Source: Actinotalea ferrariae (lineage in GTDB: Bacteria > Actinomycetota > Actinomycetes > Actinomycetales > Cellulomonadaceae). Taken from it: DNA of 35,106 bases. The DNA lies in assembly GCF_019733465.1 (NCBI RefSeq), contig NZ_JACVQL010000014.1:1-35106 (forward strand), in the 5' to 3' direction. Shown here in pieces: positions 10,801 to 27,510 of the stretch. Under the pieces are notes generated by a model. The model saw only the letters and a list, made by a program, of their open reading frames with translations, did no database searches and was not told the origin of the DNA. Within the stretch, counting starts at the first letter, position 1. Every line of letters starts with the position of its first letter. Both the position numbers and the translations under genes were made by a program.

Positions 10801-10831
10801 GGATGAGTCGGCCGGTACGCCGGGTTCTGTC
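10801..10831 (+). other. attL, left copy of the 31-bp core
   Basis: The 31 bases are identical to 27120-27150. Matching stops on both sides (10800 T against 27119 C; 10832 G against 27151 C). This copy is a detached 3' end of rnpB, the strand of the P1 stem plus the adjoining ACAGAA-containing conserved segment, and is not linked to the rest of that RNA. Confidence 0.93.
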
Positions 10832-10944
10832 GACGGATCTAACGGCTGGTGTGTGCCGAAGACGGGATGCATGGGTTTATGGTGTTGACCTGCGCGGATG
10901 CTGTACGGCGATGATGGGTGCGGGTTGGACCGTTGTGGACCTCT

Positions 10945-10977
10945 TGCGGACTCGCTGCGGACTCGCTGCGGACTCGC
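10945..10977 (+). repeat. Three perfect tandem 11-mers beside attL (candidate integrase arm sites)
   Basis: TGCGGACTCGC occurs three times without gap (10945-10955, 10956-10966, 10967-10977). Two degenerate copies keep the GGAC core further left (10927-10930, 10937-10940), so five GGAC cores follow a 10-11 bp phase. A related pair lies next to attR. In the excised circle these would be the two arms flanking attP. The region from 10832 to 10944 holds no gene that I can support. Confidence 0.65.
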
Positions 10978-10982
10978 GCGGC

Positions 10983-11261
10983 ATGATGGAAGGCATGAAG
11001 TACTCGCGCACCAAGACGCCCCCGTCCCTCATCTGCCTGTGGATTCTGTCGATCGCGCTCGTCCTGCTCGGCGTCGGCAACATGAACACACTGAGCGCGG
11101 CCGGCGTCGGTCTCGCAATGACGACCGCCGGCCTGATCGGCGTCCTCATGGCGATGGCCCTCGGTGCCCTGCGTCAGACGCTCTGGAACCGTGACGACGA
11201 GCGGGACCAGCGGGCGGCAGACGCCATGGCGGCCGACGACGAGGACGACGTCGAGATCTAG
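10983..11261 (+). CDS. Small two-helix membrane protein of the prophage
   Basis: The 92-residue product has a short basic N-terminus and two membrane helices (about residues 17-35, LICLWILSIALVLLGVG, and 40-65, AAGVGLAMTTAGLIGVLMA). A strongly acidic tail ends DDEDDVEI. It is transcribed towards the late operon, opposite to it, and ends 10 bp from the end of that operon. Its position and topology suit a holin, a superinfection-exclusion protein or another lysogeny function, and nothing in the sequence decides between them. The ATG at 10983 directly follows the tandem 11-mers. The ATG at 10995 (MKYSRTK) is an alternative start. No homologue is recognised. Confidence 0.7.
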   Translation: MMEGMKYSRTKTPPSLICLWILSIALVLLGVGNMNTLSAAGVGLAMTTAGLIGVLMAMALGALRQTLWNRDDERDQRAADAMAADDEDDVEI

Positions 11262-11271
11262 CCGTAGGGGG

Positions 11272-11742
11272 TCACGACACGGGGTAGGAGAACCCGAACG
11301 AGAACGTCGTGCCCGGACCCGGGGTGGCAATGTAGACCTCGCCGGTCGTCTTGACCGCGACCGCTCCGGCGGACGCGGTCCCCTGGATGTTCGTCGGCGG
11401 TCGAAGGCCGGCGGGCAGCGTGAGGATGGTCTCGTTCGCGACGGTCGCGGCGTTCTTGGTGACGGCGGCGGCGATGTAGACGACGCCGTTGTGCCGGCGC
11501 ACGCGCACGCCGTTCCAGGGGGCGGTGGTGTAGGCGGCGTAGCCAGCGCCGTAGCTGCCGCCGAGGGTCCCGAGGGCTGCCCAGGCGACGTCTCCGGCGC
11601 CCTTGAGGTCGTCCACGATCGACTGCACGTCGGCGTCGAGGGCCTCGGCGAGCTGCTGGAAGTGCAGCGGCGGGTTGTTCGGGGTGCCCGGCGACAGCGA
11701 GGGGTAGGGGTAGGCGCGGTCGAGGGTGTTGGGCATGGTCAT
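11272..11742 (-). CDS. Distal tail or receptor-binding protein (156 aa)
   Basis: This is the last gene of the late operon. The N-terminus (LDRAYPYPSLSPGTPNNPP) with HFQQLAEALDADVQSIVDDL is a pattern common in short tail proteins. It is followed by a Gly/Ala/Thr-rich beta-strand region with VRVRRHNGVVYIAAAVTKNA and ILTLPAGLRPPTNIQG. That second part resembles carbohydrate-binding or head-domain folds at the tips of phage tails. The ATG at 11742 overlaps the stop of the upstream gene by 4 nt. Host-surface recognition is an inference from gene position and composition. No lysis gene follows it, unlike most siphophages. Confidence 0.65.
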   Translation of the reverse strand: MTMPNTLDRAYPYPSLSPGTPNNPPLHFQQLAEALDADVQSIVDDLKGAGDVAWAALGTLGGSYGAGYAAYTTAPWNGVRVRRHNGVVYIAAAVTKNAATVANETILTLPAGLRPPTNIQGTASAGAVAVKTTGEVYIATPGPGTTFSFGFSYPVS

Positions 11743-12845
11743 GCTCCCGTCGTGATGGTGGGCGTGTCGTCGGGGACTCGGGTCACGACCGTCATGCGGC
11801 CGGTCCCCAGATGGAACGTGACCCGGGCGACGAGGTGTCGCTCCTGGGGTCCGGTGGGCAGCTGCACGGTGACGGTGTGCCCGGGGCGCAGCCAGTAGGC
11901 GGCGACGGCGGTCAGGGTGAACCCGCGGCCGCGGGAGTAGACGCGGCGCAGCAGCGTCTCTGCGACGGCCCACCGATTCAGGGTGCTGCCGACGTCCACG
12001 GTCCGGGACTGCTTGACGACCTTCGTCGGCACGGTCCCCACGGCGAGCGGCCCAGTGGTGATCTGCGCGAACGCGAACGTGTCGTCGGGGTACTGGAGCA
12101 GGACGGCGTTGCCCCACTCGCGCACGTCCAGGGCCGCGGTCGAGGCGGTGACGGTGCCGCCGGGGCCGACGTGCATCTGGTGGGCGCTGACGCCGGCCAG
12201 GTGGGGCCGGTCGGTGACGTGCCACGTGCGCGCGCCGTCGACGTACACCCACGCGTCGATGCGGTCCTGGAGCTCGACGACGACGGACCACAGGTTGGCG
12301 CCCGTCTGCACGGTCAGCGGCTCCCCGAGGGTCCTGGTGGACGTCGCCGTGAGCACGATCGTGGGGTCCGGGTCGAGCAGCCAGCCGATGAGGTACATGA
12401 TCGCGTCGCGCACGAGAGTCGTCGCGGCGAACGTGTGGGACGCGCCGAGCGGGTCCGTGTCCTGCAACCGCATCTCGTCGGAGACGGCGTGCAGGCTCAT
12501 GGTGTTGGCGGGCCGCTCGACGGGCCGCTCGCGCAGCGCGAGGTCGGCGAGCTGGTGCACGTCCCGGCGCCCGCCGGGGTACACGTAGCCGGCGGCCACG
12601 GTGACCCGGGTGCCAGCGCGCGGGTCGAGGGCATCGAGGGCGGCCTGGTGCTCGGGGACCTTGCACGGCGCCTGGGCCAGCTGCACGTGCGGGGACCAGG
12701 CCTCGTCGAACACGACGTCAGCTGTGCCGTCGACGTCGAGCTCGAACGGGTCGCCGGTCACGGGGTGGGCGGTGATGGTGAAGTCGTGAAACAGCGACTC
12801 GGGCAGGGCCTCGCGAGCGGCCTCGAGCCACGGCGCGGTGCTCAC
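11739..12845 (-). CDS. Minor tail protein (368 aa)
   Basis: The product is beta-rich and sits second to last in the tail operon, where siphophages encode tail-tip or baseplate components. Segments such as DAWVYVDGARTWHVTDRPHL, RLQDTDPLGASHTFAATTLV and TLTAVAAYWLRPGHTVTVQL suggest repeated sandwich domains like those in tail-associated proteins with a late-control or gp27-like fold. The GTG at 12845 overlaps the upstream stop as GTGA, and earlier in-frame sequence is arginine-rich antisense-like material, so this start is well supported. No peptidase or lytic motif is visible. Function is assigned from position. Confidence 0.72.
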   Translation of the reverse strand: MSTAPWLEAAREALPESLFHDFTITAHPVTGDPFELDVDGTADVVFDEAWSPHVQLAQAPCKVPEHQAALDALDPRAGTRVTVAAGYVYPGGRRDVHQLADLALRERPVERPANTMSLHAVSDEMRLQDTDPLGASHTFAATTLVRDAIMYLIGWLLDPDPTIVLTATSTRTLGEPLTVQTGANLWSVVVELQDRIDAWVYVDGARTWHVTDRPHLAGVSAHQMHVGPGGTVTASTAALDVREWGNAVLLQYPDDTFAFAQITTGPLAVGTVPTKVVKQSRTVDVGSTLNRWAVAETLLRRVYSRGRGFTLTAVAAYWLRPGHTVTVQLPTGPQERHLVARVTFHLGTGRMTVVTRVPDDTPTITTGA

Positions 12846-14014
12846 GTCAGGGGTCCGATCGCGCGCTCGGCGTAGGTCGGGAACTCGATCCGCGACGCGC
12901 CGTAGGTCGGGTTGCGCTGGAGCGCCGCGACGTAGTCCCATCCGAGGGCGCCCGCGAGGGCCGCGGTGGGGGGCTGCACCTCGGTGTAGTCGACCGTAAC
13001 GCGCCAGCGCAGCGGCGAGGTGTCCTCGCTCTGCGGGGTGACCGTGACCGTCCCTGTGCAGGCGTGGTACATGTCCATCCCGGGGTGCTGGGCCTGGCGG
13101 AGCATGACGACCTCGCCGCGACCGTAGACGGCGGCGACGGCCTGTGCGGCGGCGAAGTCTGGTGCCCAGATGGTCAGCGTGCCCGTGCGGAGCCGGAGCC
13201 GGCCCAGCGTCACGACGGGGTCCTCGCGGTTGATGACCTCGTGCACGGTGGTGGTCGCCTGCCTGGCCGCGACGTACCCCGTCACCAGGGCCAGGGGCTC
13301 GCTGTACTGCGGCATCACCGGCACCATCAGCCATGGGTCGGCGACGTCGTCGAGGGACGTCGTGACCGAGACGGTGTCGGTGGTCGTGATGGTGTAGGTG
13401 ATCGGGCCGTCGAGGGCCGCCTCGTAGTCCGTGACGATGAGGGAGCCGTCGACGATGTCCTGACCCTCGAACAGGCGCACCGAGCGGATGCCGTTGGTGT
13501 CCGAGCGCAGCAGCCCGAACTCGTACCCGGTGGGCACCGACGACACGCGCAGCCGGACCAGGCCGAACTGCGCGAGGCCGAGGAACGAGAGCAGGCGCAG
13601 CTCGTGCCCGCTGGTGCCGGCGGTGAACTCGACGGAGTACGTGGCCCGGCCGCTGCCGATGGGCACTACGGTGAACGCGAACCCGATGGCGCTGTTCCCG
13701 GCCTCGAGCTGCGCGTCGCCGTCCGCGCTCCGGTCGAGGGTGAGGTCAGCGCGGTAGCGCTGCCCGGGGATCAGGCCCAGCGGGTCGAGGTAGCGGACGA
13801 TGGTCGCTCCGCCGCTTGCCGCCGTGAACACGACGGCGTCGCCGATGAGCGCGCTGTGGGGCTGGAGGCCGAGCCACGCGGTCGAGCGCTCGGCCCAGAT
13901 GTCGGGCGCGTCGAGGTCGAGCACGGTCGTCGGCGCCGACGCTGCGTCGGCCGTCACCTTGAGCAGCACGGACGCCGTCGCCGGCTGCGGGGTGGCAGTC
14001 AGCGTGGTCGCCAT
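12842..14014 (-). CDS. Distal tail (Dit-like) or minor tail protein (390 aa)
   Basis: It lies directly after the tape measure, the usual place of the distal tail hub protein. The sequence alternates long beta segments (ATYSVEFTAGTSGHELRLLS, EFGLLRSDTNGIRSVRLFEG) with a C-terminal part ending RWRVTVDYTEVQPPTAALAG. A segment VHEVINREDPVVTLGRLRLR with TGTLTIWAPDFAAA resembles tail-hub proteins of actinophages. The start ATG at 14014 shares one base with the tape measure stop. No catalytic motif is seen. Confidence 0.75.
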   Translation of the reverse strand: MATTLTATPQPATASVLLKVTADAASAPTTVLDLDAPDIWAERSTAWLGLQPHSALIGDAVVFTAASGGATIVRYLDPLGLIPGQRYRADLTLDRSADGDAQLEAGNSAIGFAFTVVPIGSGRATYSVEFTAGTSGHELRLLSFLGLAQFGLVRLRVSSVPTGYEFGLLRSDTNGIRSVRLFEGQDIVDGSLIVTDYEAALDGPITYTITTTDTVSVTTSLDDVADPWLMVPVMPQYSEPLALVTGYVAARQATTTVHEVINREDPVVTLGRLRLRTGTLTIWAPDFAAAQAVAAVYGRGEVVMLRQAQHPGMDMYHACTGTVTVTPQSEDTSPLRWRVTVDYTEVQPPTAALAGALGWDYVAALQRNPTYGASRIEFPTYAERAIGPLT

Positions 14015-15675
14015 CAGACGACCGCCTGACCGGTCTTGATGCTCGCCGTGAACGCGATGGACCGCGGGTGCCGCACGAACTCCGCGATCTCGCGCTCCGC
14101 CTGGGTGAAGCTCACGATCGGCTCGATGACGGGCCCCGTGGGCAGGCGGCTGTACATCCGGGTCATGGCGTCGCGCACTCCCTGCTCGTTGTTGGCGATG
14201 CCGGTGGACACGCCCTCGGTGATCGACTGCCCGGTGGCGAGCGCGTGCGCGTCGATCGCGGCCTGCTGCTGGTCCGGACCCGCCTGGGCGATCACGGCGG
14301 CCGTCGCGGCGGCGACCTCGGGGCCCTTGGCGCGCAGCTCGTCGGCGAGGGCCTGGCCGCCGGCCGCGGCGATCGTCGCGAGGTTCGTCTCGAACGCGGC
14401 GGCCTCGGCGGCCTGTCGGTTCCACTCGGCGATCAGGTCGTCGACCGAGACGGACACGCCCTTGACGTAGTCCTCCCACGAGTCCTCGGCGGTCTTGGTG
14501 GCGGCGGCGGTCTGCTCGGCGGCGGTGCGCTCGGCCGCCTCCTTGTCGTCGAGGATGCCCTCGTAGACGCTCACGGCGTCGCCCGTGGCTTCCAGCGCGG
14601 CGTTGTAGGACTCCTGCACCTCGGCGGCGCGCTCCAGCTCGCGCTGGCGGGCCTCGTACTGCTCGACGGTGCGGCCCTCGGCGGCGGCGAGCGCCTCGGT
14701 GATTGCGACCGCGGCCTCTTCCTCGAGGATCAGCTCGCGCAGCTTGCCGGCGACGTTGCTCGCCATGTCTCGGTGGTCGAGGAGGGTGCGCAGGTGCTCG
14801 CTCGTCGCCTCGTCGAGCATCTGGATGCCGGTCCCCTGGGAGCGCCACTGAGCGTCCAGATCGGCCGCGACGTCCTGGGCGCCCTCCATCGCCTCGCGGA
14901 GCCCTTCGATGCGTCTCACGGGGTCCTCGTCCGTGAGCGTGCGGTACATGCCGCGGATGTTCAGTGCTCCGACCTCGGCGGCCTTAGCGAACAGCTCGGC
15001 GTTCGTCGTGGCGCGGGGCTGCCAGACCTCCCACCAGGAGCGGGCGTCGTCGATCGCGGTCGCGGTCTCGCGCCACCGGTCGCGCAGCAGCTCGACCTTC
15101 TCCGCGGCGTCGGCGTCGGCGAGGCTGAGGGCCATCTCGCCTGCCCGCTCGGTGAGCGCGTTCGCCTCCTCGGCCGCCGTCTGTAGCGCCGCCGTGATCA
15201 TCCCGAGCCCGGCAGCGGCGACGAGGCCGGCGGCGGCGCCCGCGGGCCCGAACCCGGCGAAGGCGTTGGCGGCGACCTCCTGGAACGCGTCGGCGATCGA
15301 CTCCGCCGACCCGTCGAACGAGGCTGCGGCCTCGCGGGCGGTGCTGTTGGCTTCGTCCTTGAACTCCTCGGCGCCCTCGCCGGCACGCTCGAACCCGCGG
15401 TCGATGTCGCGCCCGATCGAGTCGCCCGCGTCGTCGGCCTGGCGCTTGGCCTTGGTGAAGGTGTCGCTGAACGAGCGCTCGAGCTTCTCCGCGGCGTCCT
15501 TGCCGTCGTCGCCGACCCCGTCGAGGTCGCGCCCGATCTTGTCGCTCGCGGTGTCGGCCTCGCGGGCGAGGTCGTCGAGGGAGTCGGCGACGGCGTCGAG
15601 CGACTTCTCGACGTCGTCGGTGCCCTTGAGGAACGCCCGGACGTCGGAGGCGAACGCGATATTGATGCCGGCCAT
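14014..15675 (-). CDS. Tail tape measure protein (553 aa)
   Basis: This is the longest tail gene. It is almost wholly alpha-helical and rich in Ala, Glu, Asp and Lys, with heptad-like coiled coils at residues about 15-130 and 310-400. A short hydrophobic glycine-rich helix (about 138-160, FGPAGAAAGLVAAAGLGMI) could insert into the host membrane. Tape measures set tail length at roughly 0.15 nm per residue, so a tail near 80 nm is expected, which is short for a siphophage. The ATG follows GAAGGG by 5 nt and is one base after the upstream stop. No transglycosylase or peptidase domain is present, which matters because the prophage shows no separate lysin. Confidence 0.88.
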   Translation of the reverse strand: MAGINIAFASDVRAFLKGTDDVEKSLDAVADSLDDLAREADTASDKIGRDLDGVGDDGKDAAEKLERSFSDTFTKAKRQADDAGDSIGRDIDRGFERAGEGAEEFKDEANSTAREAAASFDGSAESIADAFQEVAANAFAGFGPAGAAAGLVAAAGLGMITAALQTAAEEANALTERAGEMALSLADADAAEKVELLRDRWRETATAIDDARSWWEVWQPRATTNAELFAKAAEVGALNIRGMYRTLTDEDPVRRIEGLREAMEGAQDVAADLDAQWRSQGTGIQMLDEATSEHLRTLLDHRDMASNVAGKLRELILEEEAAVAITEALAAAEGRTVEQYEARQRELERAAEVQESYNAALEATGDAVSVYEGILDDKEAAERTAAEQTAAATKTAEDSWEDYVKGVSVSVDDLIAEWNRQAAEAAAFETNLATIAAAGGQALADELRAKGPEVAAATAAVIAQAGPDQQQAAIDAHALATGQSITEGVSTGIANNEQGVRDAMTRMYSRLPTGPVIEPIVSFTQAEREIAEFVRHPRSIAFTASIKTGQAVV

Positions 15676-15676: not shown

Positions 15677-16177
15677 TCAGCCCTTCCCCTCGGCGGCGTC
15701 GGCGTACTTGCGGACGATCAGCTGCACCCACAGCGACACGGCGCGAGGCGCGACGTCGGCGAACGCCGGGAAGATCACACGCCCGGTGCGGATGCGCGGC
15801 GGGAGCTGCCGGCGGGTGTGCCGGGTGACCTTGTGCGTCCCGCCGGTCTTGGAGCGCCGCTGGTAGGTGGTCACGGCGTTGCGGTCAGCGCCGAACTCCC
15901 ACGCGTGCCACGACGCGACCGGGACCAGCCCTCCGCGCAGCTTGCGCCGCGACGTCGCCGCGACGGCCGTGGGCGGGTTCCCGGCCTTGACCCGGGCGCC
16001 CTGGGCGAGCACGCGGGCGTCCATCTGACCGGTCGCGTGCTGCGCCACGACGGACTTCCACACCGGGCCGATGGTCTGGGTGGTCGACCGGTTGATGTCG
16101 TTGCGCAACTCCCGGTCCGCGGCCTTGAGCGCCAGGGTCGCGGCCTGGAGCTCACGTGACTCGCGGACCGAGAGCAT
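15677..16177 (-). CDS. HK97 gp10-like or tail-assembly protein (166 aa)
   Basis: A basic protein with an N-terminal helix (ELQAATLALKAADRELRNDI), a central RRKLRGGLVPVASWHAWEFG segment and KTGGTHKVTRHTRRQLPPRI. The helix plus central hairpin with W-A-x-E-F-G resembles HK97 gp10-type tail-completion proteins, which normally precede the major tail gene. Here it lies between the tail tube and tape measure genes, exactly where the two tail chaperones normally sit. No -1 slippery sequence or overlapping second frame is evident. It may be a chaperone, or a completion protein in an unusual position. Gaps to its neighbours are 6 bp upstream and 1 bp downstream. Confidence 0.6.
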   Translation of the reverse strand: MLSVRESRELQAATLALKAADRELRNDINRSTTQTIGPVWKSVVAQHATGQMDARVLAQGARVKAGNPPTAVAATSRRKLRGGLVPVASWHAWEFGADRNAVTTYQRRSKTGGTHKVTRHTRRQLPPRIRTGRVIFPAFADVAPRAVSLWVQLIVRKYADAAEGKG

Positions 16178-16603: not shown

Positions 16604-16980
16604 GGTGTCTCCTCGGTGCTGATCGTGATGCCGGCATGGATGGTGAGGGTCCACGAGTGGACGGTCTCGTTCGCGCTGACGGTCCGGACGGCCCGGTCGA
16701 GCACGTAGGACGGTGAAGACCACAGCAGCGGCAGGACGAGCTCGAGGAACCCGTCGAGGTCGGTGTCGGCGCGCGCGGGGTCCTGGTGGGGCGTGTAGAG
16801 CGCGAGGGTGTACTCGACGCGGTAGTGCCCGTTCGGTGCGGCGTCCAGGTGCCCGACCTCGTTGACCCACAGCGCGACGGTGCGCCTCGGCACGCCGTCG
16901 AGCGTCCCCGGGAACCCGATGACGCGGACTCCTGGCGCGAGGGGCTTGAGCAGGTCGACGAGACCCTGACGGAGGTTCAC
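16600..16980 (-). CDS. Tail terminator / tail completion protein (126 aa)
   Basis: The product starts MNLRQGLVDLLKPLAPGVRV and has GFPGTLDGVPRRTVALWVNE, then VEYTLALYTPHQD and a C-terminal VHSWTLTIHAGI strand pair. The pattern of an N-terminal helix followed by a mixed sheet, with YxLxLxT near the middle, is that of gpU/gp17-like tail terminators. Such proteins cap the tail tube and join it to the head connector. The gene sits immediately before the tail tube gene and overlaps both neighbours by 4 nt. Assignment rests on position and general fold features. Confidence 0.68.
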   Translation of the reverse strand: MNLRQGLVDLLKPLAPGVRVIGFPGTLDGVPRRTVALWVNEVGHLDAAPNGHYRVEYTLALYTPHQDPARADTDLDGFLELVLPLLWSSPSYVLDRAVRTVSANETVHSWTLTIHAGITISTEETP

Positions 16981-17297
16981 AGGACCCTCCCGACTCGCCG
17001 CGGGCGCAGCAGGTTCTTCACGGTCCAGTCCATCGGGAACACCGTGACCTGCAGTCCGTCGACGCCGATCTGGTTGCCGTCACCCGCGAGCCCCGACCGG
17101 TACAGGGCTCGCGCCTGCATGATCTGCGCGAGCTTCCACCGCTCCGGGATGGTGGTGACACCGTCGACCGGCCACGTCCCTGCGGGCAGGAACGCCACGC
17201 ACTGCTCGTAGGCGGCCTGGAGGTAGGAGGCGAGCACGGTCAGGTCATCGGGGGCGTCGGCCCACTGGTCCATCGCCTCCTGTGGTGTCACCCACAT
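16977..17297 (-). CDS. Head-tail connector protein (106 aa)
   Basis: The protein begins MWVTPQEAMDQWADAPDDLT and is mainly helical, with LASYLQAAYEQCVAFLPAGT and PERWKLAQIMQARALYRSGL. The last part, GLQVTVFPMDWTVKNLLRPR, closely follows the C-terminal pattern of phage gp6-like connectors (V-F-P-D/M-W-x-V-x-x-L-L-R-P). These assemble as a ring below the portal. The ATG at 17297 follows GGAGGAGG and is preferred over a longer frame. Placement two genes after the capsid gene supports the role. Confidence 0.8.
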   Translation of the reverse strand: MWVTPQEAMDQWADAPDDLTVLASYLQAAYEQCVAFLPAGTWPVDGVTTIPERWKLAQIMQARALYRSGLAGDGNQIGVDGLQVTVFPMDWTVKNLLRPRRVGRVL

Positions 17298-17319
17298 GCT
17301 CGCCTCCTCCCCCAAGCGT

Positions 17320-17496
17320 TCAGTCGGCCTGGCGGGCGGCGCGGACCGCCTCAACGTCGAGGCCGAGGTGCTCTGCGATCCGCTCGTCCGTCTCGCCCTG
17401 CACGGCCATGACAGCTGCCTCGCGCGACTGCGCGGACGTCACGGGCGTGTCGCTCGCCGGTCGGGTGGCGGCGCGCTGGCCGCGGGGCCGGCTCAC
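17320..17496 (-). CDS. Short basic-to-acidic protein (58 aa) between capsid and connector
   Basis: The GTG at 17496 overlaps the capsid stop as GTGA and the frame ends 22 bp before the connector start, so it fits the operon exactly. The first half is basic and disordered (SRPRGQRAATRP). The second half, GETDERIAEHLGLDVEAVRA, is a predicted helix-turn-helix-like helical pair. Many actinophages have a small gene of this kind here, annotated as hypothetical or as a head-tail component. The function is unknown. The gene is easily missed because of its length and GTG start. Confidence 0.72.
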   Translation of the reverse strand: MSRPRGQRAATRPASDTPVTSAQSREAAVMAVQGETDERIAEHLGLDVEAVRAARQAD

Positions 17497-19130
17497 GCGA
17501 CCAGGTCCGCGACGACGACGCCGGCCACCGAGGACGGGGTGCGGTCCTGGAGGCTCGTGTAGCCGAAGACCGCCAGGTCTCGGCCGCCGTTGGCGACGTG
17601 CTCGGCCTCGACGCGCACCGGCGTGCCGCCGCCGAACTCCTTGAAGACCACGGTGGCGCCGTCACCCACGAGCACCTTGCCCAGAGCGCTCGCGCGACCG
17701 GACGGACGGATCCGGAAGCCGTCGAGCTGGCCCTCCTCCAGCCCCAGGGCCATCGTGAGGAACTTCAGGCCCTTCTGCTCGAGCGTGAAGAGCAGGTTGC
17801 GGTACAGGTCGCTGCCGACGATCGCGAACGACGGGTTGAGGTCCCGGCCGATGAGGTCGAGCGACCCGTCGACGAGCGCCGCCAGACCGGCGTCCACGCC
17901 CGTCGGCACGGTGCCGGGCGTGAACGTCGTGGCGAGGTCGAACAGACCGTCGTGCGTGTCGAGGTCCGTCTCCTTGCGGTACGACTCGACCTGCGCCTCG
18001 ACGAAGGCGCGGAGCACGTCGCTGTCGCCGAAGTCGATGTAGCGGCGGTCGAGGTCGGCGCCGTGTGCCCACCGGTCGGTGAGGTAGTCGACCGGCGTCG
18101 CGGTCATGCCGCTCGTGGGGATCGCGGCCTTGTTGCCCGAGTACTTCTGCACGAGCGGCTTGGTGCCGAAGTGGAAGCCCTTCTGGCGGTAGCTGGTCAG
18201 CGGCGCGGTGGCGACGAGCGGGATCCACTTGCGGGCGTAGGGCACGGTGGCCCAGACCTCGCCGAGCCACTCGGGCGCGGCCGTGATCTCGCCGAGGCCG
18301 TCGCCGTCGTTGTCGCCGTCGTCGTGCGTGACGTCTGCGAGCGCGGCGAGGAGCTTGTCCTGTCCCCCGCTCTTGAACGACGACGCCAGCAGCCGGAACA
18401 CCTGCTCGGCGGTCTTCGTCGGCTTGCCGCCGCCGTGGGGGGTCTGGGTCAGGCCGGCCGCCGCGGCAGCCGTGAGGGTCTCGCCCATCTCGGTCTCGCT
18501 CTCTGCCGACTGCTCGGCGTCGTCCCCCTCGGGTGCGTCCTTCGGGGTGGTTTCGGTCTTGTAGGTGCTGGTGGTCTTGCGGACGTAGGTCACACCGTCG
18601 ACGGTGATCTCCTCGACGGACTCCGACTGCGTGCTGCTGTCTTCGGCGAGACCCTCGGGCAGGTCCCCGGCGTCGGCGGCGAGCAGGGTGGCGCCGTCGA
18701 ACGCGGGGCGCACGACGGCAGCGGCGCCGGTGAGCAGGCCGCCGAGCAGCTTCCCCGCGCGGATGATCGGGTTGTCGACCTCGACGGACGCGGACGCGCG
18801 CAGCTCCACGCCGGGCGTCGGGTTGGTCTTCGCCTGCTCCGCCTCCTCGAGCAGCGCGTCGCCGGCGGGACCCTCATGGACGTGGAAGGACGCGATGAGC
18901 GCCTCCTCGCCCCACTCCAGGCTGGTGCCGGTCGCCAGGTCCCGCCCGGCGATGTGTCGGTCGTTGAGGCGGAGCACGCCCGGGTCGTCCGGCAGGGTCA
19001 CGCAGCCCCGTGAGGCGAGCACCTTGCCGCGGTTCGTGCGGCCCTCGCCGTAGGGCAGGAGGCGGTAGGTCAGCGTCCGGGCGCCGGCGTCGGCCGCGAG
19101 GAGGCGACCGGCGATCTGCATGGTGGTCAT
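17493..19130 (-). CDS. Fused prohead protease - scaffold - major capsid protein (545 aa)
   Basis: One polypeptide combines three morphogenesis roles. Residues 1-140 match the HK97-type maturation protease: H59 in LRLNDRHIAG is the likely catalytic histidine, and the serine is S113 or S115 in GVELRASASVE. Residues 150-250 are a charged, low-complexity linker (SVEEITVDGVTYVRKTTSTY, then acidic runs) that could serve as the scaffolding delta region. Residues 280-545 are an HK97-fold capsid (ITAAPEWLGEVWATVPYARK, the FAIVGSDLYRNLLF segment, and VANGGRDLAVFGYTSLQDRT near the end). The ATG follows GGAGGA 8 nt upstream. Protease-capsid fusions are known in actinophages; autocleavage during maturation would free the capsid part. 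Confidence 0.88.
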   Translation of the reverse strand: MTTMQIAGRLLAADAGARTLTYRLLPYGEGRTNRGKVLASRGCVTLPDDPGVLRLNDRHIAGRDLATGTSLEWGEEALIASFHVHEGPAGDALLEEAEQAKTNPTPGVELRASASVEVDNPIIRAGKLLGGLLTGAAAVVRPAFDGATLLAADAGDLPEGLAEDSSTQSESVEEITVDGVTYVRKTTSTYKTETTPKDAPEGDDAEQSAESETEMGETLTAAAAAGLTQTPHGGGKPTKTAEQVFRLLASSFKSGGQDKLLAALADVTHDDGDNDGDGLGEITAAPEWLGEVWATVPYARKWIPLVATAPLTSYRQKGFHFGTKPLVQKYSGNKAAIPTSGMTATPVDYLTDRWAHGADLDRRYIDFGDSDVLRAFVEAQVESYRKETDLDTHDGLFDLATTFTPGTVPTGVDAGLAALVDGSLDLIGRDLNPSFAIVGSDLYRNLLFTLEQKGLKFLTMALGLEEGQLDGFRIRPSGRASALGKVLVGDGATVVFKEFGGGTPVRVEAEHVANGGRDLAVFGYTSLQDRTPSSVAGVVVADLVA

Positions 19131-20272: not shown

Positions 20273-21730
20273 TCATGCTGCGACGATAGCGAGCCGCTTC
20301 CGCTCGGGCCGTCGGTCGTAGGACCACAGCGCCAGCGACGCGGCCACGATCGGGCTGATCGGCGCACCGGAGTAGTCCTTCGGCCCGAACGCGCGCCCGG
20401 ACTTGGAGACGTCCCTCCAGGTCAGGTTGCCCACCGCGGCGTCGAGGTCGTCCTGGCCGAAGTGCCGCAGCCGGCCGGCGTTGACCTCGTTCACCAGGCG
20501 CGAGGCGGCGCCCATGATGTCCTTCATCTGCAGCCGCTCGACCTTCGGCGTCGGCTTGCGCAGCCGTGCGAGGGCCGTGGCTGGGTCGCGGTTCGCGCCG
20601 ATGTCGTCGTGCGCCACAGGGCACCCGGTCACCCGCGCCGCGCGGTGCGCCGCAGCCGCGACCCACCCCGTGCCGAGCTCGTGCGCGACGACCTCGACCA
20701 TGGCGTTGCCGTCCTCGTCGCGCCACGCGTAGACGATCGAGGCCGACGTCGAGTCGTAGGCGCAGTCGAACGCGACTCCCACCCGCTCGGGACGCTCGGT
20801 CCGCTCGACCTTCGCAGCGGCCCAGCGCGCCGACGCGATGGCATCGGTGGAGGCGTCGATCGGGAACCGGCACAGGTACTCGCGCTCGAACTGCGCGCGG
20901 CCCATCGCCTTGAACCGCGCACGCATCTTGCGCAACGTCGTCAGCGTGCGCCCGTCCGCGTCCGGCGTCAGACCCGGGTGCACCCGCAGCAGTACCGCCT
21001 CGTTCAGGCCGATGAGGTTGCCCTCGTCGTCGAGGTCCACCGCCTCCTCGTCGTCGCGGATCGAGTAGTCCACGATGCCCGTGAGCTCCTCGTCCTCGGG
21101 CTGCTCGCCGCGCCCGTCCTGGAGCGTCTGCCACAGCAGACCCGCACGCGACTTCGACGGCGTCCCCGCCACGATCGCCTGCCCCATCGGGCGCGTGTCC
21201 AGCAGCGGCAGCGCGCCCGCCTGGAGGTCCGCGGACTTCTCGACCGACAACTCCCCCGCCTCGTCGAACAGCTCGACGTCAGCAGCCTCCGACCGGAACG
21301 CGCCCGCCGAGGGGGCCACCACCCAGATCACCGAGCCGTTGTCGAACTCGATGCGCTCGCGGCCGTTCGACCACCGCAGCTGCCCGATGCCCTCCTCGAA
21401 GCCGTGCGCCTCCAGCTCGCGCATCCGCTCCCGCATGATGTTCCCCGCGCGCGTGCCATCCTGCGCGGTCGTCACCACCCGGTAGCCGGGGATCAGCGCG
21501 CACCGACCCAGCAGCACCGCCCACAACGTCGTCGTCTTCGTCGACCGCCGCGGCATCAGCACGCCGACCGTCGGGTACAGCGGCGTCCCGTCCGAGCACT
21601 TCGCCTCGAGCACGCCGGCCAGGACACGGCCCTGCACCGTCGGCGCCTGCCCGAGCATCTGCAACCCACGCTCGTAGGCGGAGACGTCCGTGTCGGCAGG
21701 GATCTCGGACAGATGAGTCGGCTCAGCCAC
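20273..21730 (-). CDS. Terminase large subunit (485 aa)
   Basis: This is the packaging motor and nuclease. The Walker A-like loop is at residues 59-68 (MPRRSTKTTT), the Walker B at 152-157 (VELFDE, with E157 as the catalytic carboxylate), and a coupling SGT-like motif is AGTPSKSR. The nuclease half starts with VGVAFDCAYD, where D322 is the first metal ligand, and includes VTGCPVAHDDIGANRDP. The GTG at 21730 follows CGGAGG by 7 nt. No small terminase is found beside it; the HNH gene upstream may take part in packaging, as shown for HK97-type phages. Downstream of it lies the late promoter, so terminase belongs with the early/middle transcript rather than the portal operon. Confidence 0.9.
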   Translation of the reverse strand: MAEPTHLSEIPADTDVSAYERGLQMLGQAPTVQGRVLAGVLEAKCSDGTPLYPTVGVLMPRRSTKTTTLWAVLLGRCALIPGYRVVTTAQDGTRAGNIMRERMRELEAHGFEEGIGQLRWSNGRERIEFDNGSVIWVVAPSAGAFRSEAADVELFDEAGELSVEKSADLQAGALPLLDTRPMGQAIVAGTPSKSRAGLLWQTLQDGRGEQPEDEELTGIVDYSIRDDEEAVDLDDEGNLIGLNEAVLLRVHPGLTPDADGRTLTTLRKMRARFKAMGRAQFEREYLCRFPIDASTDAIASARWAAAKVERTERPERVGVAFDCAYDSTSASIVYAWRDEDGNAMVEVVAHELGTGWVAAAAHRAARVTGCPVAHDDIGANRDPATALARLRKPTPKVERLQMKDIMGAASRLVNEVNAGRLRHFGQDDLDAAVGNLTWRDVSKSGRAFGPKDYSGAPISPIVAASLALWSYDRRPERKRLAIVAA

Positions 21731-21814: not shown

Positions 21815-22126
21815 TCAGATTCCTCGGATCCCTCGGTCTCGAGCTGGCGGGAGCGCGCGCGGGTTGGTCGCGGCTCGTCGTGCGTTGGTGATGGCGGCGC
21901 CGCGTTGTCCGCCGGCGGCTTGGTTGCAGCGGGAGTGTTCGGGCCTGGTGTTGGTGAGGTCGTCGCTGCCGCCGAGGGCGCGGTCGAGGATGTGGCCGAC
22001 GTCCCACTTCATGGCGAGGGTGATGGGTCGTCCGCAGCGTGCGCAGGGCCACATGCCTTGGGCGTGGATGCGGGCTCGCCAGTGGGCGCGGGCGGTGGTC
22101 ACCTTGCGCCCGGACCAGCCGCTCAC
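21815..22126 (-). CDS. HNH endonuclease (103 aa)
   Basis: The product has a zinc-binding C28-A-R-C31 pair, the first catalytic histidine H45 in WDVGHILDRALGGSDD, N59 in DLTNTRPEHSRCNQ and H64/C67. This is a complete HNH core with structural zinc. HNH proteins next to terminase in HK97-like phages stimulate DNA cleavage at cos sites, and that role fits here. The GTG at 22126 overlaps the stop of the preceding zinc-finger gene as GTGA. The 84-bp space to terminase contains a small hairpin (GGGCT-GTCA-AGCCC near 21785), and its minus strand carries TTGACA without a convincing -10. Confidence 0.88.
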   Translation of the reverse strand: MSGWSGRKVTTARAHWRARIHAQGMWPCARCGRPITLAMKWDVGHILDRALGGSDDLTNTRPEHSRCNQAAGGQRGAAITNARRAATNPRALPPARDRGIRGI

Positions 22127-22920: not shown

Positions 22921-22941
22921 GTCTGTGTCAACCTCCTGCGT

Positions 22942-23611
22942 TCATGCGGCGCGCCGCGATCGGACGGTGTTGAGGATCGTCAGCGGGTGGCACTGGTCTT
23001 CCCACATGCCGAGAACGGCGGAGTACTCGGCGCCACCGAGTCCTCCGAGCTCGTTCTCCAGCCAGGCTTCGAGTGCTTCGACGTCTTCGGTCATCTCGTC
23101 CCAGTCGGGCGTCCGCGCCTCGGCGTGGACCCGTTGGCCTTGGACGACGGAATGATGAAGAACTTGACCCTTGATGGAAGTACTTCCTGATGGGGGGGCG
23201 CTCACCGCCCCCCTTCGAGAGTCGTCTACCGCCCCCCCTTGGGTCGTCCACCGCCCCCCTTCCCTGGTCGCCGTCAAGCCCCGAAGGGGGACGGTCGCCG
23301 CCCCCCTTGTTGATAGCGGGGACGGTGAGCGCGTAGGTGTTCGCGACGCCCTTGCCGTACTGGTTCCCGCCAGCCGATGTGAGCCTGAGCCAGCCCTTGG
23401 TCATCAGGGCGCGGACGGCGTCCTTGGCGGTCTTCTCGCGCACGCAGGCATCGGCGGCGATCCGCGCCCAGCCGGGGTGGGCGTTGCCCAGGTGCTTGTC
23501 GGTGTACGACGCGATGGTCATGAGCACGCGGTACTCCGCGTGTGTGAGGTCGGCGCCCCGGAGCTTCTTCTGCCAGGAGAGCTTCGAGAGCGCCGGGGCG
23601 CCATCGCTCAT
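22942..23611 (-). CDS. Replication-initiator-like winged-helix protein with an apparent one-base frameshift
   Basis: The ATG at 23611 follows GAGGAGG and overlaps the upstream stop (ATGA). Residues 10-95 form a winged helix (LTHAEYRVLMTIASYTDKHL, an RIAADACVREKTAKDAVRAL segment, and a wing GGNQYGKGVANTYALTVP), as in phage replication initiators. A repetitive Gly/Arg tail follows. As sequenced, the frame runs on to 22928 with an arginine-rich, unlikely C-terminus. Removing one base from the G7 tract (plus-strand C7 at 23232-23238) restores a sensible 222-residue protein ending at 22942. The tail repeats RGAVDDP and RGAVDDS become visible, and the end reads EALEAWLENELGGLGG then CHPLTILNTVRSRRAA. 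The frameshift may be a mutation, slippage-based control or a sequencing error. Confidence 0.7.
23204..23308 (-). repeat. Iteron-like G-tract repeats inside the initiator gene (candidate phage origin)
   Basis: Four copies of AAGGGGGGCGG with a similar right flank (GGTGGACGAC, GGTAGACGAC, GGTGAGCGC, GGCGACCGT) lie on the minus strand. Their AA ends are at 23308, 23261, 23240 and 23215, so three are spaced 21-25 bp and one stands apart. The third has seven Gs instead of six. Iterons located within the initiator gene are the arrangement of phage lambda O and ori, which makes this the best origin candidate in the element. Confidence 0.5.
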
Positions 23612-23952
23612 CCCTCCTCGCCCTCGGTGGGCACGGGCTCCTTGTCGGCGTTGTACGAGCCGCACCGTGCGCAGTACGCGCCCGGCTCGAGCCGTCCGTG
23701 GCAGACGCCGCTGCGGATGATCTGGAGGAGGTCGCAGTCCTCGCGGTGCCACTCGCGGACGACGAGCTCGGGACCGGTCCCCGCGGGGCTCTCGATGATG
23801 TCGACGTGCGCCTCCCACGACAGGCAGTCGTGGCAGGCCGTGATCGTCTGACCCTCTGCCGGGTAGTCGACGGCGACGTACACCCCTCGCTTCGGGCCCT
23901 GGTACGGCTTGGGGATCTCGTCCCACGGTTCCCACTCGATCGTCACGATCAT
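23608..23952 (-). CDS. Phage early protein with cysteine pairs (114 aa), hypothetical
   Basis: It starts MIVTIEWEPWDEIPKPYQG, and the ATG at 23952 follows AGGAG and overlaps the preceding stop (ATGA). Cysteine motifs are TACHDCLSWEAH, the REDCDLLQI region, VCHGRLEPG and YCARCGSYN, consistent with one or two structural zinc sites. No enzyme signature is seen and I do not recognise the family. Its start and stop both overlap neighbours by 4 nt, so it belongs to the tightly coupled early operon ahead of the initiator. Confidence 0.75.
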   Translation of the reverse strand: MIVTIEWEPWDEIPKPYQGPKRGVYVAVDYPAEGQTITACHDCLSWEAHVDIIESPAGTGPELVVREWHREDCDLLQIIRSGVCHGRLEPGAYCARCGSYNADKEPVPTEGEEG

Positions 23953-24152
23953 CGGGCGCTCCTGTCGAACCGGTCGAGGCGCACGAGCAGCTCGGCGATG
24001 TCGTCGCCCTGCCGGTCGTCGCGGCAGCGCTGGCACCGGAAACCGCGCACGCCGTGGTGCCTGGGTCCCCCGTTTACCCAGCACTCTGGCGGGTGTGGTG
24101 GCTTGTGGAAGCGGCTGCCGGCGATCGCCGCGTTCGCGGTCATGTCCCTCAT
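23949..24152 (-). CDS. Small phage early protein (67 aa), hypothetical
   Basis: The frame from the ATG at 24152 overlaps the upstream stop as ATGA, so translational coupling explains the lack of a ribosome site. An in-frame GTG lies 15 nt further upstream. The product is basic, begins MRDMTANAAIAG, contains PPECWVNGG and a RCQRCRD cysteine pair, and ends with a helix (DIAELLVRLDRFDRS). A CxxC with the earlier Cys and His residues could hold zinc. No family is recognised. Its only clear context is the early operon between two zinc-ribbon genes. Confidence 0.68.
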   Translation of the reverse strand: MRDMTANAAIAGSRFHKPPHPPECWVNGGPRHHGVRGFRCQRCRDDRQGDDIAELLVRLDRFDRSAR

Positions 24153-24640: not shown

Positions 24641-24726
24641 CTTCTGCTCCTGGGATGGGGTAGGAGTCACGCCCGCGGGTCGCGCCAACGACTGCGCGGG
24701 CTTCTTCACGTTCGGCGTCGACATCG

Positions 24727-24927
24727 TCACGACGCGTCCCGGGTGTCGCTGGCCTGGTACTGCTCTTCCAGCCACGCCTCGACGTCGTCCTCGCGGTACA
24801 TCACCCGCCGGCCGACCTTGAAGCTCTTCGGGCCTCCCTCGCCGCGAGCGCGGTACCAGCGGAGGCTGGCGACGGGTACGCGAGTGCGGGCCGAGGTCTC
24901 GTCGAGCGTGAGCAACCGTGCCGTCAT
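24727..24927 (-). CDS. Excisionase-like MerR/AlpA-type DNA-binding protein (66 aa)
   Basis: The whole protein is one winged helix: a LTLDETSARTRVPVASLRWY helix-turn-helix, a wing with GPKSFKVGRRVMYREDDVEA, and a short acidic tail. This is the standard form of recombination directionality factors encoded near tyrosine integrases, and of early regulators. It is the first leftward gene from the immunity region, so the lytic promoter would express it first. The ATG at 24927 is 6 nt after GGAAGG; the GTG just before it is less likely. It probably binds near the attP arm repeats to favour excision. Confidence 0.82.
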   Translation of the reverse strand: MTARLLTLDETSARTRVPVASLRWYRARGEGGPKSFKVGRRVMYREDDVEAWLEEQYQASDTRDAS

Positions 24928-24963
24928 CACATGCCTTCCTTGTCGTGGCTGACTGTGATTTCC

Positions 24964-25008
24964 AGTAGACCAGAGTCCCTAGTTACACGCAACTACCAAC
25001 GCGTGTAA
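24964..25008. promoter_or_regulatory. Divergent immunity control region with inverted-repeat operator
   Basis: TTACACGC (24983-24990) and GCGTGTAA (25001-25008) are perfect 8-bp arms around 10 bp. They lie between the divergent excisionase and repressor genes. A leftward promoter overlaps it: -35 TTGCGT (24992-24987), 17 bp, -10 TCTACT (24969-24964), with a start about 30 nt from the excisionase ATG. Repressor bound at the dyad would cover the leftward -35. The rightward promoter for repressor and integrase is less clear; TAGTTA at 24980-24985 is a possible -10. Confidence 0.65.
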
Positions 25009-25017
25009 GGTCGCGCC

Positions 25018-25488
25018 ATGGACAGTCCGAGAGACAAGGCGATCGGCGAGAACGTCGTCAGGCTGCGCGGCCCGCTGTCGCAGGCGGCCCTGGCGGACGC
25101 CATGCGCGCCCGAGGCTGGAAGTGGTCGCAGGCGACGGTCTGGAGTGTTGAGCAGGGCGAGCGGCCTCTGCGCCTCGCGGAGGCCGTCGACTTGGCTGGC
25201 CTCCTCGAATGTGAGATCGAGGATCTGATCGCTCTCGACTACCAGATGATGTTGACGATGGGCGCGCGCAAGGTCCGCGAGAGCGCGCACGCGCTAGAAC
25301 GTGCGATCGGCGACTACCACATCGCTCGCATGGCCCTAGGACTTCTCGTCGAGAAGGTGAACGGGCGCCGTGACGTCAACCTCGGACCGTCCCAGGAGGC
25401 TCTCGACCAAGGTGCTGAGCTCGTCGAGAAGGTTCGGCTTGCCGTAGAGACGGGTACCCACGATGGCATCGATCCAGAAGCGCCCTGA
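25018..25488 (+). CDS. Prophage immunity repressor (156 aa)
   Basis: The N-terminal Cro/CI-type helix-turn-helix spans about residues 8-65. The core reads LSQAALADAMRARGWKWSQA and then TVWSVEQGERPLRLAEAVDL, a classic Xre pattern. A helical C-terminal part (YHIARMALGLLVEKVNGRRD) may mediate dimerisation. No LexA-like protease domain is present, so induction would not be by self-cleavage. It sits divergently from the excisionase gene with a dyad operator in between. Its 3' end overlaps the integrase start by 26 nt, so both are probably made from one lysogenic transcript. Confidence 0.87.
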   Translation: MDSPRDKAIGENVVRLRGPLSQAALADAMRARGWKWSQATVWSVEQGERPLRLAEAVDLAGLLECEIEDLIALDYQMMLTMGARKVRESAHALERAIGDYHIARMALGLLVEKVNGRRDVNLGPSQEALDQGAELVEKVRLAVETGTHDGIDPEAP

Positions 25489-26563
25489 AGGCAAGTGGCG
25501 GGCCCGCTACCGCGACGAGGCGGGCAAGGAGCACGCCCGCCACTTCGACCGGAAGACCGACGCGCAGCGGTGGTTGAACGAGGTCACGGCATCGGTCGTC
25601 ACAGGGCAGTACGTCGCCCCGACGGCCGGGAAGATCACGCTGCGCGAGTACGCCGAGCAGTGGCGCGCCAACCAGGCACACCGGCCGTCGACCCGAGAGC
25701 AGGTCGAGCGGCACTTCCGCCGGCACGTGTACCCGTCGCTCGGCGACCGTCCGCTGTCGACGATCCTGCCGTCAGACCTCAAGGCACTCGTCCGCCGGCT
25801 GTCTGTGGACCTCGAGCCCGCGACGGTCTCGGTGATCTACCGGCACCTGTCTGCGGTGTTCAAGGCCGCGGTGCTGGACCGGCGGATCGCCTCGTCGCCG
25901 TGCGCGGGGGTGTCGGTCCCGAAGCCCCGTAGAGCCAAGGTGGTACCGGTCTCGACGGAGGCGGTGCAGCGGCTCGCCGAGGCAATGCCCGAGCGCTACC
26001 GCGCGCTCGTGATCCTCGCGGCCGGCACGGGCATGCGCCCCGGTGAGGTCTTCGGCCTGACGGTTGACCGAGTCGACTTCCTGCGACGTCGGGTCATCGT
26101 CGACCGACAGCTCGTCACCGTGGCGGGTCGTGAGCCGTTCCTTGGTCCCGTGAAGACCGAGTCGTCCGACAGGATCGTGCCGCTCCCCCAGGTCGTCGTC
26201 AACGCACTCGCCGCGCATCTTGCGGTGTTCCCGGCTGCGCCCGACGAGCTCGTGTTCCGGACCGCAACGGGTCGCCCGCTGCGCCGCTCTACCTTCGGCG
26301 ACATCTGGCGCGCCGCCGTCACAGAGGCAGGGATCGAAGGCCTCGTCCCGCACGGCTTGCGGCACTACTACGCGAGCCTGCTCATTCGGCACGGGGAGTC
26401 GGTGAAGACGGTGCAAGAGCGGCTAGGGCATGCGTCGGCGGTCGAGACGCTAGACACCTATAGCCACCTGTGGCCGGACTCCGACGACCGCACGCGAGAG
26501 GCCGTGGATAGCGTGCTGCTCGGCACGGCAACCACCACCGTGCCGAGCGAGCGCGCGCTCTAG
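25463..26563 (+). CDS. int: Tyrosine-recombinase phage integrase (366 aa)
   Basis: The enzyme inserts and excises the prophage at the 31-bp core in rnpB. Domains are an AP2-like arm-binding head (1-50, MASIQKRPEGKWRARYRDEA), a core-binding domain (about 60-155), and the catalytic domain (165-350). The catalytic residues are R192 (GTGMRPGE), K231 (VKTESSDR), H297 and R300 (HGLRHYYA), H323 (LGHAS) and nucleophile Y333 (LDTYSHLW). All are intact, so it should be active. The start overlaps the repressor gene in another frame. Nearby TGCGGAC-type repeats on both sides of the att core are candidate binding sites for the arm domain. Confidence 0.95.
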   Translation: MASIQKRPEGKWRARYRDEAGKEHARHFDRKTDAQRWLNEVTASVVTGQYVAPTAGKITLREYAEQWRANQAHRPSTREQVERHFRRHVYPSLGDRPLSTILPSDLKALVRRLSVDLEPATVSVIYRHLSAVFKAAVLDRRIASSPCAGVSVPKPRRAKVVPVSTEAVQRLAEAMPERYRALVILAAGTGMRPGEVFGLTVDRVDFLRRRVIVDRQLVTVAGREPFLGPVKTESSDRIVPLPQVVVNALAAHLAVFPAAPDELVFRTATGRPLRRSTFGDIWRAAVTEAGIEGLVPHGLRHYYASLLIRHGESVKTVQERLGHASAVETLDTYSHLWPDSDDRTREAVDSVLLGTATTTVPSERAL

Positions 26564-26610
26564 CGACCGCAACATGCCCCGTCCTGCAGCCCCCATCGGA
26601 GGTACCTGCC

Positions 26611-27054
26611 ATGCGAACCATCACGATGACGCTGCGTGCCGCGCCTGAGCACGTTGGCGCCGTAGTGCGAGCCCTGGAGGCGGGCGGGTACCCCGTCCGT
26701 GTCGACCCAACGTGGGTTGATCCAGATGGTCGGCAGTACCTCGAGGTCCAGGACATGGTGCCGACCGCCTCGGCGGAGGAGCAGCGGGGGTTCCATGAAC
26801 ACATCGTCGGACTGCTTCGTGAAGCTGCGGTCGAGGCAGATCACGCAGGCAGTGGCGTTGTGGTCGCGGGCGGGACGTCGTTTCATCGCTGGATCGCCGT
26901 CGCCCTCAATGGCGAGCCAGTCGCACGGATCTTGGCGGCGGACGACGCCGACATCGCTCGGCAGCTTCCCGACATCGCGGAGGCGTTCGGAGTGAGTGTC
27001 GATGACCTGGAGTGCGCTCGCCCGGACCCGTGGCCGGCGATTCCCGGCGACTGA
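26611..27054 (+). CDS. Prophage right-end cargo protein (147 aa), unknown
   Basis: The ATG at 26611 follows CGGAGGT by 7 nt and lies 47 bp after integrase. It begins MRTITMTLRAAPEHVGAVVR and continues ALEAGGYPVRVDPTWVDPDG, a beta-alpha-beta start that suggests a ferredoxin-like fold. A second domain has GTSFHRWIAVALNGEPVARI and ends ECARPDPWPAIPGD. There is no signal peptide or membrane helix. Last-gene position next to att is typical of lysogenic conversion or accessory genes, possibly a defence or toxin-type function, but nothing in the sequence proves this. Confidence 0.72.
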   Translation: MRTITMTLRAAPEHVGAVVRALEAGGYPVRVDPTWVDPDGRQYLEVQDMVPTASAEEQRGFHEHIVGLLREAAVEADHAGSGVVVAGGTSFHRWIAVALNGEPVARILAADDADIARQLPDIAEAFGVSVDDLECARPDPWPAIPGD

Positions 27055-27079
27055 TGCGGACTCCTCGCGGACCGCGGAC
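27055..27079 (+). repeat. GGAC-core repeats beside attR (candidate integrase arm sites)
   Basis: TGCGGACTCCT (27055-27065) and CGCGGACCGCG (27066-27076) form an 11-bp-phased pair, with a further GGAC at 27076-27079. The first shares its leading 9 bp (TGCGGACTC) with the triplicated 11-mer near attL. The pair is about 44-65 bp from the core. A small hairpin (TCACG-GCAT-CGTGA, 27104-27117) lies between it and the core. Confidence 0.55.
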
Positions 27080-27119
27080 GCCACTCTCTCCCGTTCTTGC
27101 AGGTCACGGCATCGTGAGC

Positions 27120-27150
27120 GGATGAGTCGGCCGGTACGCCGGGTTCTGTC
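27120..27150 (+). other. attR, right copy of the 31-bp core within rnpB
   Basis: The sequence is identical to 10801-10831 and is continuous with the body of rnpB. The phage therefore carries the last 31 nt of rnpB and restores the RNA on integration. It includes the GGATGAGTCGGCC strand of the P1 stem and the complement of the conserved ACAGAA element. Confidence 0.93.
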
Positions 27151-27510
27151 CCCGCACCCGGTTGCCCCGGTGCGGGTGGCGGCCATCCATCTACGACGTA
27201 CGTTGCCGCACGCCTCCAGCGGCCTACCCGGGAGCTCGGGCGAGCAGCCCTCGAACGCTCCCTGTCTGGCCTTGCTCCAGGTGGGGTTTACCTAGCCGCA
27301 CCGGTCGCCCGGTGCGCTGGTGGTCTCTTACACCACCGTTTCACCCTTACCTCGTGGTCCGGCCGAGGCCGATCCACGAGGCGGTCTGCTCTCTGTGGCA
27401 CTGTCCCGCGGGTCGCCCCGGGTGGGTGTTACCCACCACCTCGCTCTGCGGAGCCCGGACGTTCCTCGGCACCGGTCTCCCGGTGACGCGACCGCCTGGC
27501 CGACTCATCC
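27120..27510 (-). ncRNA. rnpB: RNase P RNA, bacterial class A
   Basis: The catalytic RNA of RNase P matures tRNA 5' ends. Reading on the minus strand, the 5' GGATGAGTCGGCC at 27510 pairs perfectly over 13 bp with GGCCGACTCATCC at 27132-27120, forming P1. Conserved segments follow in order: GAGGAACGTCCGG (27467-27455, CR-I), the AGAGACCACCAGC region, GGTAAACCCCACC (27292-27280), and ACAGAACCCGGC near the 3' end. The length of about 391 nt is normal for actinobacteria. The last 31 nt double as attR. A -10 TAACGT (27523-27518) lies 7 nt before the predicted start. Sequence downstream of the 3' end is now phage DNA, so its native terminator was displaced to the far side of attL. Confidence 0.96.

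Follow-up and report, generated by a model that had tools for sequence, protein, structure and literature searches.

The window analysed here, a 35,106-nucleotide stretch of Actinotalea ferrariae (contig NZ_JACVQL010000014.1 of assembly GCF_019733465.1), very probably contains a temperate siphophage of 16.3 kb that has been integrated by a tyrosine integrase at the 3' end of rnpB, the gene for RNase P RNA, rebuilding that end. This reading is drawn from the sequence, from two empty sites in relatives, and from 19 parallel pairs of attachment (att) sites in other loci. We infer that this integrase uses the att sites described below, and that the element can excise and produce virions.

The element is delimited by an exact 31-bp repeat (10801-10831 and 27120-27150), which can be extended on neither side and has only these two copies in the whole 4.26-Mb assembly; from base composition, about 5e-8 such repeat pairs are expected by chance. 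On the minus strand, positions 27119-27507 match the whole Rfam model RF00010 (1-367, 290.5 bits). Since this match is full-length, rnpB is intact and the right copy of the repeat is its final 31 nt, just as a previous sequence-only reading of this DNA had described them. The P1 helix of the restored gene is paired over 14 bp, with one pair lying just beyond the core, so that by both model coverage and P1 pairing rnpB is still intact after the insertion. No tRNA or tmRNA gene was found in the window, and the insertion target is rnpB. The features at the site are as follows.

10801-10831, no strand: attL core, the displaced copy of the rnpB 3' end (exact repeat; host flank on the left, phage on the right; the left flank joins rnpB directly in the relatives G007 and G011)
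27120-27150, no strand: attR core, the final 31 nt of rnpB (exact repeat; RF00010)
27119-27507, minus strand: rnpB (class A RNase P RNA), its 3' end rebuilt by the insertion (RF00010, 290.5 bits; P1 of 14 bp)

Among 18 genomes of the same genus, the core 24-mer (at most one mismatch) is present as a single copy in 17 and as two copies in G008, where they bracket an integrase-bearing stretch of that genome's own. Empty sites, which it had been proposed to look for in close relatives, are present in G007 and G011. In the former (locus L108), window positions 10781-10831 correspond to 10081-10129 and window positions 27120-28368 to 10099-11311; these matches overlap at the core, and therefore host flank, core and rnpB, followed by its neighbour, are contiguous, constituting an empty site. 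The latter (L109) has an empty site likewise, with a left match limited to 10798-10831. The distance between the core and a response-regulator gene (window 8902-9342) is about 50 bp in G007 and about 1.6 kb in G011. The element is thus bounded by identical att cores and absent from empty sites and, as the flanks are joined in the latter, the inserted unit of 16,319 bp is located at the rnpB 3' end. In a draw of 394 genomes of the class, the core was matched in 260, with two or more copies in 15 (the own genome included); in 4 of these 15 there are copies on opposite strands, and some copies lie on different contigs. Two more stretches of the window, 3691-8144 and 28368-31219, are unmatched in the compared DNA of G007 and G011, the flanks being otherwise collinear.

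Anatomy of the attachment sites

Pairs of attL and attR were mapped in 20 loci, the window included, with units of 2,335 to 16,319 bp, 17 of which are shorter than 10 kb. A candidate direct copy had been detected in 24 loci, from which these 20 were kept by hand; L065, L127 and L195 (13 bp only) and L068 (the same locus as L182) were dropped. In 17 pairs there is an exact shared block of at least 20 bp, and what these blocks have in common is a 17-bp part, at offsets +3 to +19 counted from the 3' end of rnpB, the probable zone of strand exchange. Only in the window, L129 and L166 does the exact block reach across the ACAGAA element of rnpB (offsets +24 to +29); in L063 and L179 this element is included as well, given one mismatch at another position. 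As the shared blocks mostly stop before ACAGAA, what the element must resupply is limited to the 3' strand of P1 and does not extend to the whole 31 nt. The claim that the core spans a P1 strand and ACAGAA, and that an exact copy of it is required, can thus be retained for the 3' strand of P1, but not for ACAGAA, which lies outside 14 of the 17 shared blocks.

The flanks linked to integrases (n = 68, leaving out duplicates and loci with rnpB in the other orientation) show a perfect 8-bp direct repeat in the phage-side arm of attR (-78 to -38) in 54 of the 68 loci, versus 0.24% of shuffled arms. The spacing is 11 bp in 61 of the 63 arms with a repeat of at least 7 of 8. The 8-mer varies by lineage (TGCGGACT, TGGGGACT, TGTGTACC, TGTGCCCC and others), with both copies agreeing within a locus, and it is suggested that these repeats are candidate arm-type sites that would co-evolve with the integrase. 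In 43 cases, a second site with the exact sequence GC[AT]GGTCA appears at a distance of 20-22 nt from the core. That GCAGGTCA could be a general host feature downstream of rnpB was considered and rejected: it is found at 40 nt or less (at most one mismatch) in 58 of the 68 integrase-linked flanks versus 8 of 36 control flanks, these controls (from genus and family) being unfiltered, so that at least two of the 8 (L020 = G017 and L027 = G065) are in rnpB elements, while L111 and L112 repeat L019 and L017. In some Geodermatophilaceae arms, an inverted repeat can be seen by eye around the GC[AT]GGTCA site. The corresponding features of the window are these.

27123-27139, attL counterpart 10804-10820, no strand: putative strand-exchange zone (intersection of the shared blocks of 17 elements)
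27055-27081, plus strand: candidate arm-type sites of the right arm (TGCGGACT at 27055 and, by eye, two weaker copies near 27066 and 27074)
10945-10974, plus strand: candidate arm-type sites of the left arm (three exact TGCGGACT, 11 bp apart)
27099-27106, plus strand: conserved phage-side site GCAGGTCA, 21 nt from the core
10886-10893, minus strand: GCAGGTCA in the left arm (the plus strand reads TGACCTGC)

Integrase relatives and free phage forms

Within its own family, the window belongs to the nine loci with the best E-values among the 30 best, and all nine are at 6 kb or less from rnpB. As for the other 21, G065 is at rnpB, G017 is at one end of a 15.3-kb stretch whose other end is at rnpB, 18 have no rnpB in the stretch examined (up to about 10 kb per side), and G094 has no rnpB motif in its 1.5-kb flanks. 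The 18 loci, together with G189:C2, form the control set of 19 family loci, in which L206 and L208 have a short flank on one side.

An alignment of ten integrases (A1; the nine best family loci plus G065), all of them at or near rnpB, was used to scan named genomes, in which 143 loci were confirmed; the counts below refer to the best 80 of them. By profile search, rnpB was found in 70 of the 80 loci (64 of 74 once the six belonging to A1 are set aside), which answers the proposal that related integrases be sought beside rnpB in actinobacterial genomes. The gene is downstream and faces int in 62 loci, and has another orientation in 8; in 50 of the 62 it lies no more than 600 bp from the matched integrase end, mostly at 60-90 bp. 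RF00010 was full-length in all seven loci checked against Rfam. The taxa concerned are Geodermatophilaceae, Nocardioidaceae, Mycobacteriaceae, Micrococcales, Pseudonocardiales and Acidimicrobiia, among others. Integrases of the group are accompanied by TrwC relaxase genes in L144 and L137 (Nocardioides), and by a Phage_capsid gene inside the 9.9-kb unit of L129 (Mycobacterium).

Some loci present features of their own. The 13.4-kb rnpB element of L144 carries (1114-13053) RelA/SpoT-domain, Schlafen-type helicase and AAA (AbiEii-like) genes as well as the TrwC relaxase, and the integrases of L036 and L038 have a long insertion within the catalytic domain. At L301 (G269, 4939-5932), found via the rnpB duplication alone, an integrase relative adjoining rnpB is broken across several frames.

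A quick tree was built with 115 integrases, leaving out duplicate loci, L215, matches below 250 residues and proteins below 300 amino acids (250 for added viral and phage rows). The window falls in a 61-row clade, with a support of 86 in the Shimodaira-Hasegawa-like approximate likelihood-ratio test (SH-aLRT), not starred. In this clade, rnpB is downstream in 48 rows and upstream in 4, one row has an rnpB phage attachment site (attP), 3 have too little flank, and 5 are without rnpB. The same core appears in a separate 12-row viral clade, whose integrases are at 27-30% identity. When the rnpB label is pooled (78 rows with it, 26 without), at least 11 changes are required on the tree, and thus gains or losses were repeated. 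As far as these sequences indicate, the group of the window integrase is located mostly at rnpB across Actinomycetota.

Viral contigs were scanned for the rnpB 3' pattern, giving 73 stretches (at least one contig twice), with a related integrase within 3 kb in 22, rnpB sequence in 34, and both in 9. L077 (IMG/VR, 15,101 bp) encodes an integrase of the same kind (56%), portal, terminase and capsid, and contains an rnpB-like core without remaining rnpB beyond it, an arrangement which is to be read as an attP. This contig has no terminal repeat, and we infer that it is circular from gene order only. In the cultured Arthrobacter phages TripleJ and Kukla, the core adjoins int, outside the annotated genes. 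As in the window, this core is identical to an rnpB end and has a related integrase (39%) beside it, and in TripleJ the core is flanked on either side by direct repeats spaced by 11 bp; unlike the window's element, they are phages of 45-47 kb whose integrase is outside the main rnpB clade. The 29-bp core of TripleJ (at most one mismatch) was found in 10 of 396 genomes of the order, 6 of them exact, and it is the rnpB 3' end in 10 of the 10 loci checked. Near-complete rnpB-like genes are present in the viral contigs L229 (162 kb), L257 (369 kb), L280 (190 kb) and L219 (7 kb); they may be RNase P RNA genes of the phages themselves or host DNA included in the contigs.

Gene content and alternative explanations

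The genes of the element are the following.

25463-26563, plus strand: tyrosine integrase of 366 amino acids, reading toward rnpB (phrog_1, E 3.6e-73; PF00589)
26611-27054, plus strand: open reading frame (ORF) of 147 amino acids between int and attR
25018-25488, plus strand: helix-turn-helix (HTH) protein upstream of int, likely a regulator (HTH_31, E 4e-4, under the Pfam cut-off)
22928-23935, minus strand: replication-initiator-like gene, start unsure (phrog_1032, E 1.3e-6; HTH_36)
21815-22126, minus strand: HNH endonuclease (phrog_338, E 1.9e-10)
20273-21730, minus strand: terminase large subunit (phrog_9, E 8e-28; about 40% to Arthrobacter cluster-FE phages)
19134-20213, minus strand: portal protein (PF04860)
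17493-19130, minus strand: major capsid/protease fusion (phrog_2263, E 2e-37; BlueFeather gp5)
16977-17354, minus strand: head-to-tail adaptor, start unsure (44% to BlueFeather gp6)
15677-16177, minus strand: equivalent of BlueFeather gp9 (51% identity)
14014-15675, minus strand: tape measure protein (phrog_1686; BlueFeather gp10)
11272-13513, minus strand: minor tail genes, exact starts unsure (BlueFeather gp11/gp12, 39-41%; phrog_3639, phrog_1887)

The catalytic residues R192, K231, H297, R300, H323 and Y333 are invariant in A1, and the integrase joins this R-K-H-R-H-Y set to SAM-like and central domains. Both int and the 147-amino-acid ORF, for which there is no PHROG or Pfam match, point at rnpB, leaving a gap of 65 bp before it. 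ORFs resembling the HTH protein adjoin int in several elements. The head-tail module is collinear with that of BlueFeather, an Arthrobacter phage of 16.3 kb, with identities of 27-51%. In the same family, L202, L205 and L207 have related small-phage head genes beside integrases without nearby rnpB, which suggests that modules may be exchanged.

Several points weigh against an intact prophage whose integrase is devoted to rnpB. The right-arm repeat of the window is degenerate, its best pair agreeing in 6 of 8 positions, and no lysin, endolysin or holin homologue was recognised in the element by PHROG and Pfam profiles or by comparison with BlueFeather. The figure of 70 in 80 is a biased rate, as the A1 query was drawn from rnpB-site integrases and the best 80 of 143 loci were taken. 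When 395 other genomes were drawn across the phylum, 5 proved to have an integrase at E <= 1e-80. One of the five has rnpB at 1.5 kb or less; no rnpB appeared in the longer stretches examined for the remaining four (one of which measures just 4.2 kb), and one of these integrases abuts tRNA-Cys.

Given that no endolysin is recognised, the prophage may be incomplete. It is possible, albeit unlikely, that it is a defective prophage or a satellite which has kept integrase and head-tail genes and needs a helper for lysis, as could also be thought from the small size (under 10 kb) of most of the mapped rnpB units and from the capsid gene in L129. However, the genes for terminase, portal, capsid, tape and tail have open frames and follow the order of those in a cultured phage of the same size, L077 is a similar viral contig of 15.1 kb, and lysis genes may escape profiles.

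A loosely specific integrase, for which rnpB would be one of several targets in a family not dedicated to it, seems rather improbable. A related integrase at L298 abuts tRNA-Cys, and rnpB is not the target of every related integrase; three Nocardioidaceae rows and 4 of the 5 matches of the phylum survey lack rnpB in the DNA examined, the clade of the window has the unstarred SH-aLRT of 86, and the label changes repeatedly on the tree. Nevertheless, 53 of the 61 rows of this clade are at rnpB or have an rnpB attP, and 3 of the 5 without rnpB are viral contigs beginning at the integrase.

That the repeat arose by chance or from an old partial duplication of rnpB, the phage genes being there for another reason, has a precedent of sorts in L302 (G498), where, with no related integrase present, the full gene has a partial second rnpB (3' half, 190 nt; 8799-8988) about 3.8 kb away from it, but it is highly improbable in view of the chance expectation of the repeat, the empty sites lacking the block, and the same att anatomy at 19 other loci.

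Integration at rnpB among known systems

It is proposed that the circular DNA of the temperate siphophage would carry a copy of the host rnpB 3' end, and that the integrase would bind the core and the flanking arm sites and exchange strands within the last ~20 nt of rnpB. After integration, rnpB would keep its host body, with the terminal P1 strand and everything downstream being phage-derived, and the displaced 31-bp stub would be left at the far end of the element. Because strand exchange inside the P1 strand would make the RNase P RNA 3' terminus and the downstream processing and termination region element DNA, an effect on RNase P is possible. The DNA that follows rnpB in the lysogen showed no intrinsic terminator, and the folding of four downstream stretches gave nothing distinctive. 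It may tentatively be proposed that, in Actinomycetota, rnpB serves as a general niche for attachment, which two or more distant integrase lineages have come to use and in which phages, elements with a relaxase and satellites with a capsid all insert, and that an element could alter the level or maturation of host RNase P.

The closest parallel is the integration by tyrosine integrases into tRNA and tmRNA genes, addressed with Islander and TIGER (PMC4383910, PMC12424338, in their accessible parts). In both cases the 3' end of an essential RNA gene is used, the gene is restored by the element, and a displaced fragment is left at the far end, whereas the target here is the RNase P RNA gene. According to the accessible text of PMC12424338, 33.8% of islands are in tRNA/tmRNA genes, 43.4% in coding sequences, and 22.8% in intergenic DNA; with these classes, rnpB islands would probably count as intergenic, and such sites may be there unremarked. 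The dusA-associated integrase family, as portrayed in the available portion of PMC4482086, is similar in that one integrase group uses one conserved gene for diverse islands and prophages, but it concerns the 5' end of a protein-coding gene in Proteobacterial lineages instead of the 3' end of an RNA gene in Actinomycetota.

Cluster-FE phages such as BlueFeather (MT024867; PMC7954295, available in part) resemble the element in their size of 15-16 kb and in the same order of terminase, portal, capsid-protease fusion, adaptor, gp9, tape and minor tails. The annotation of BlueFeather is without an integrase, whereas an integrase and att sites are present in the window element, in which no lysin was recognised. 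For BlueFeather, no lysogeny genes were found and a non-temperate nature was suggested in what is available of PMC7954295, so the window element looks like its temperate counterpart.

No report of rnpB as a bacterial attachment site (attB) was found among the papers listed in searches of the open-access literature, two of these listings covering 40 of 458 and 12 of 1,573 matches, and subscription journals, supplements and island databases being outside this search, nor is one mentioned in the accessible parts of PMC2705793, PMC4524478, PMC8776855, PMC12884075, PMC10763512, PMC10383233, PMC6582537, PMC3541175, PMC4701971 and PMC12424338. The earlier remark that few rnpB systems are described agrees with this literature, but the target is widespread in Actinomycetota sequences, cultured phages included. 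The mechanism is ordinary; what is of interest is that rnpB is the target, how widely it is used, and that it seems to be missing from the literature.

With the att sites mapped in 20 loci and an integrase clade that is mostly there, rnpB joins the RNA genes used as integration targets. This gene is essential and single-copy, and these integrases are thus candidates for site-specific insertion tools in actinobacteria. The flanks of rnpB are worth inspecting for unannotated islands, and change of the RNase P RNA 3' end by mobile DNA becomes a testable question.

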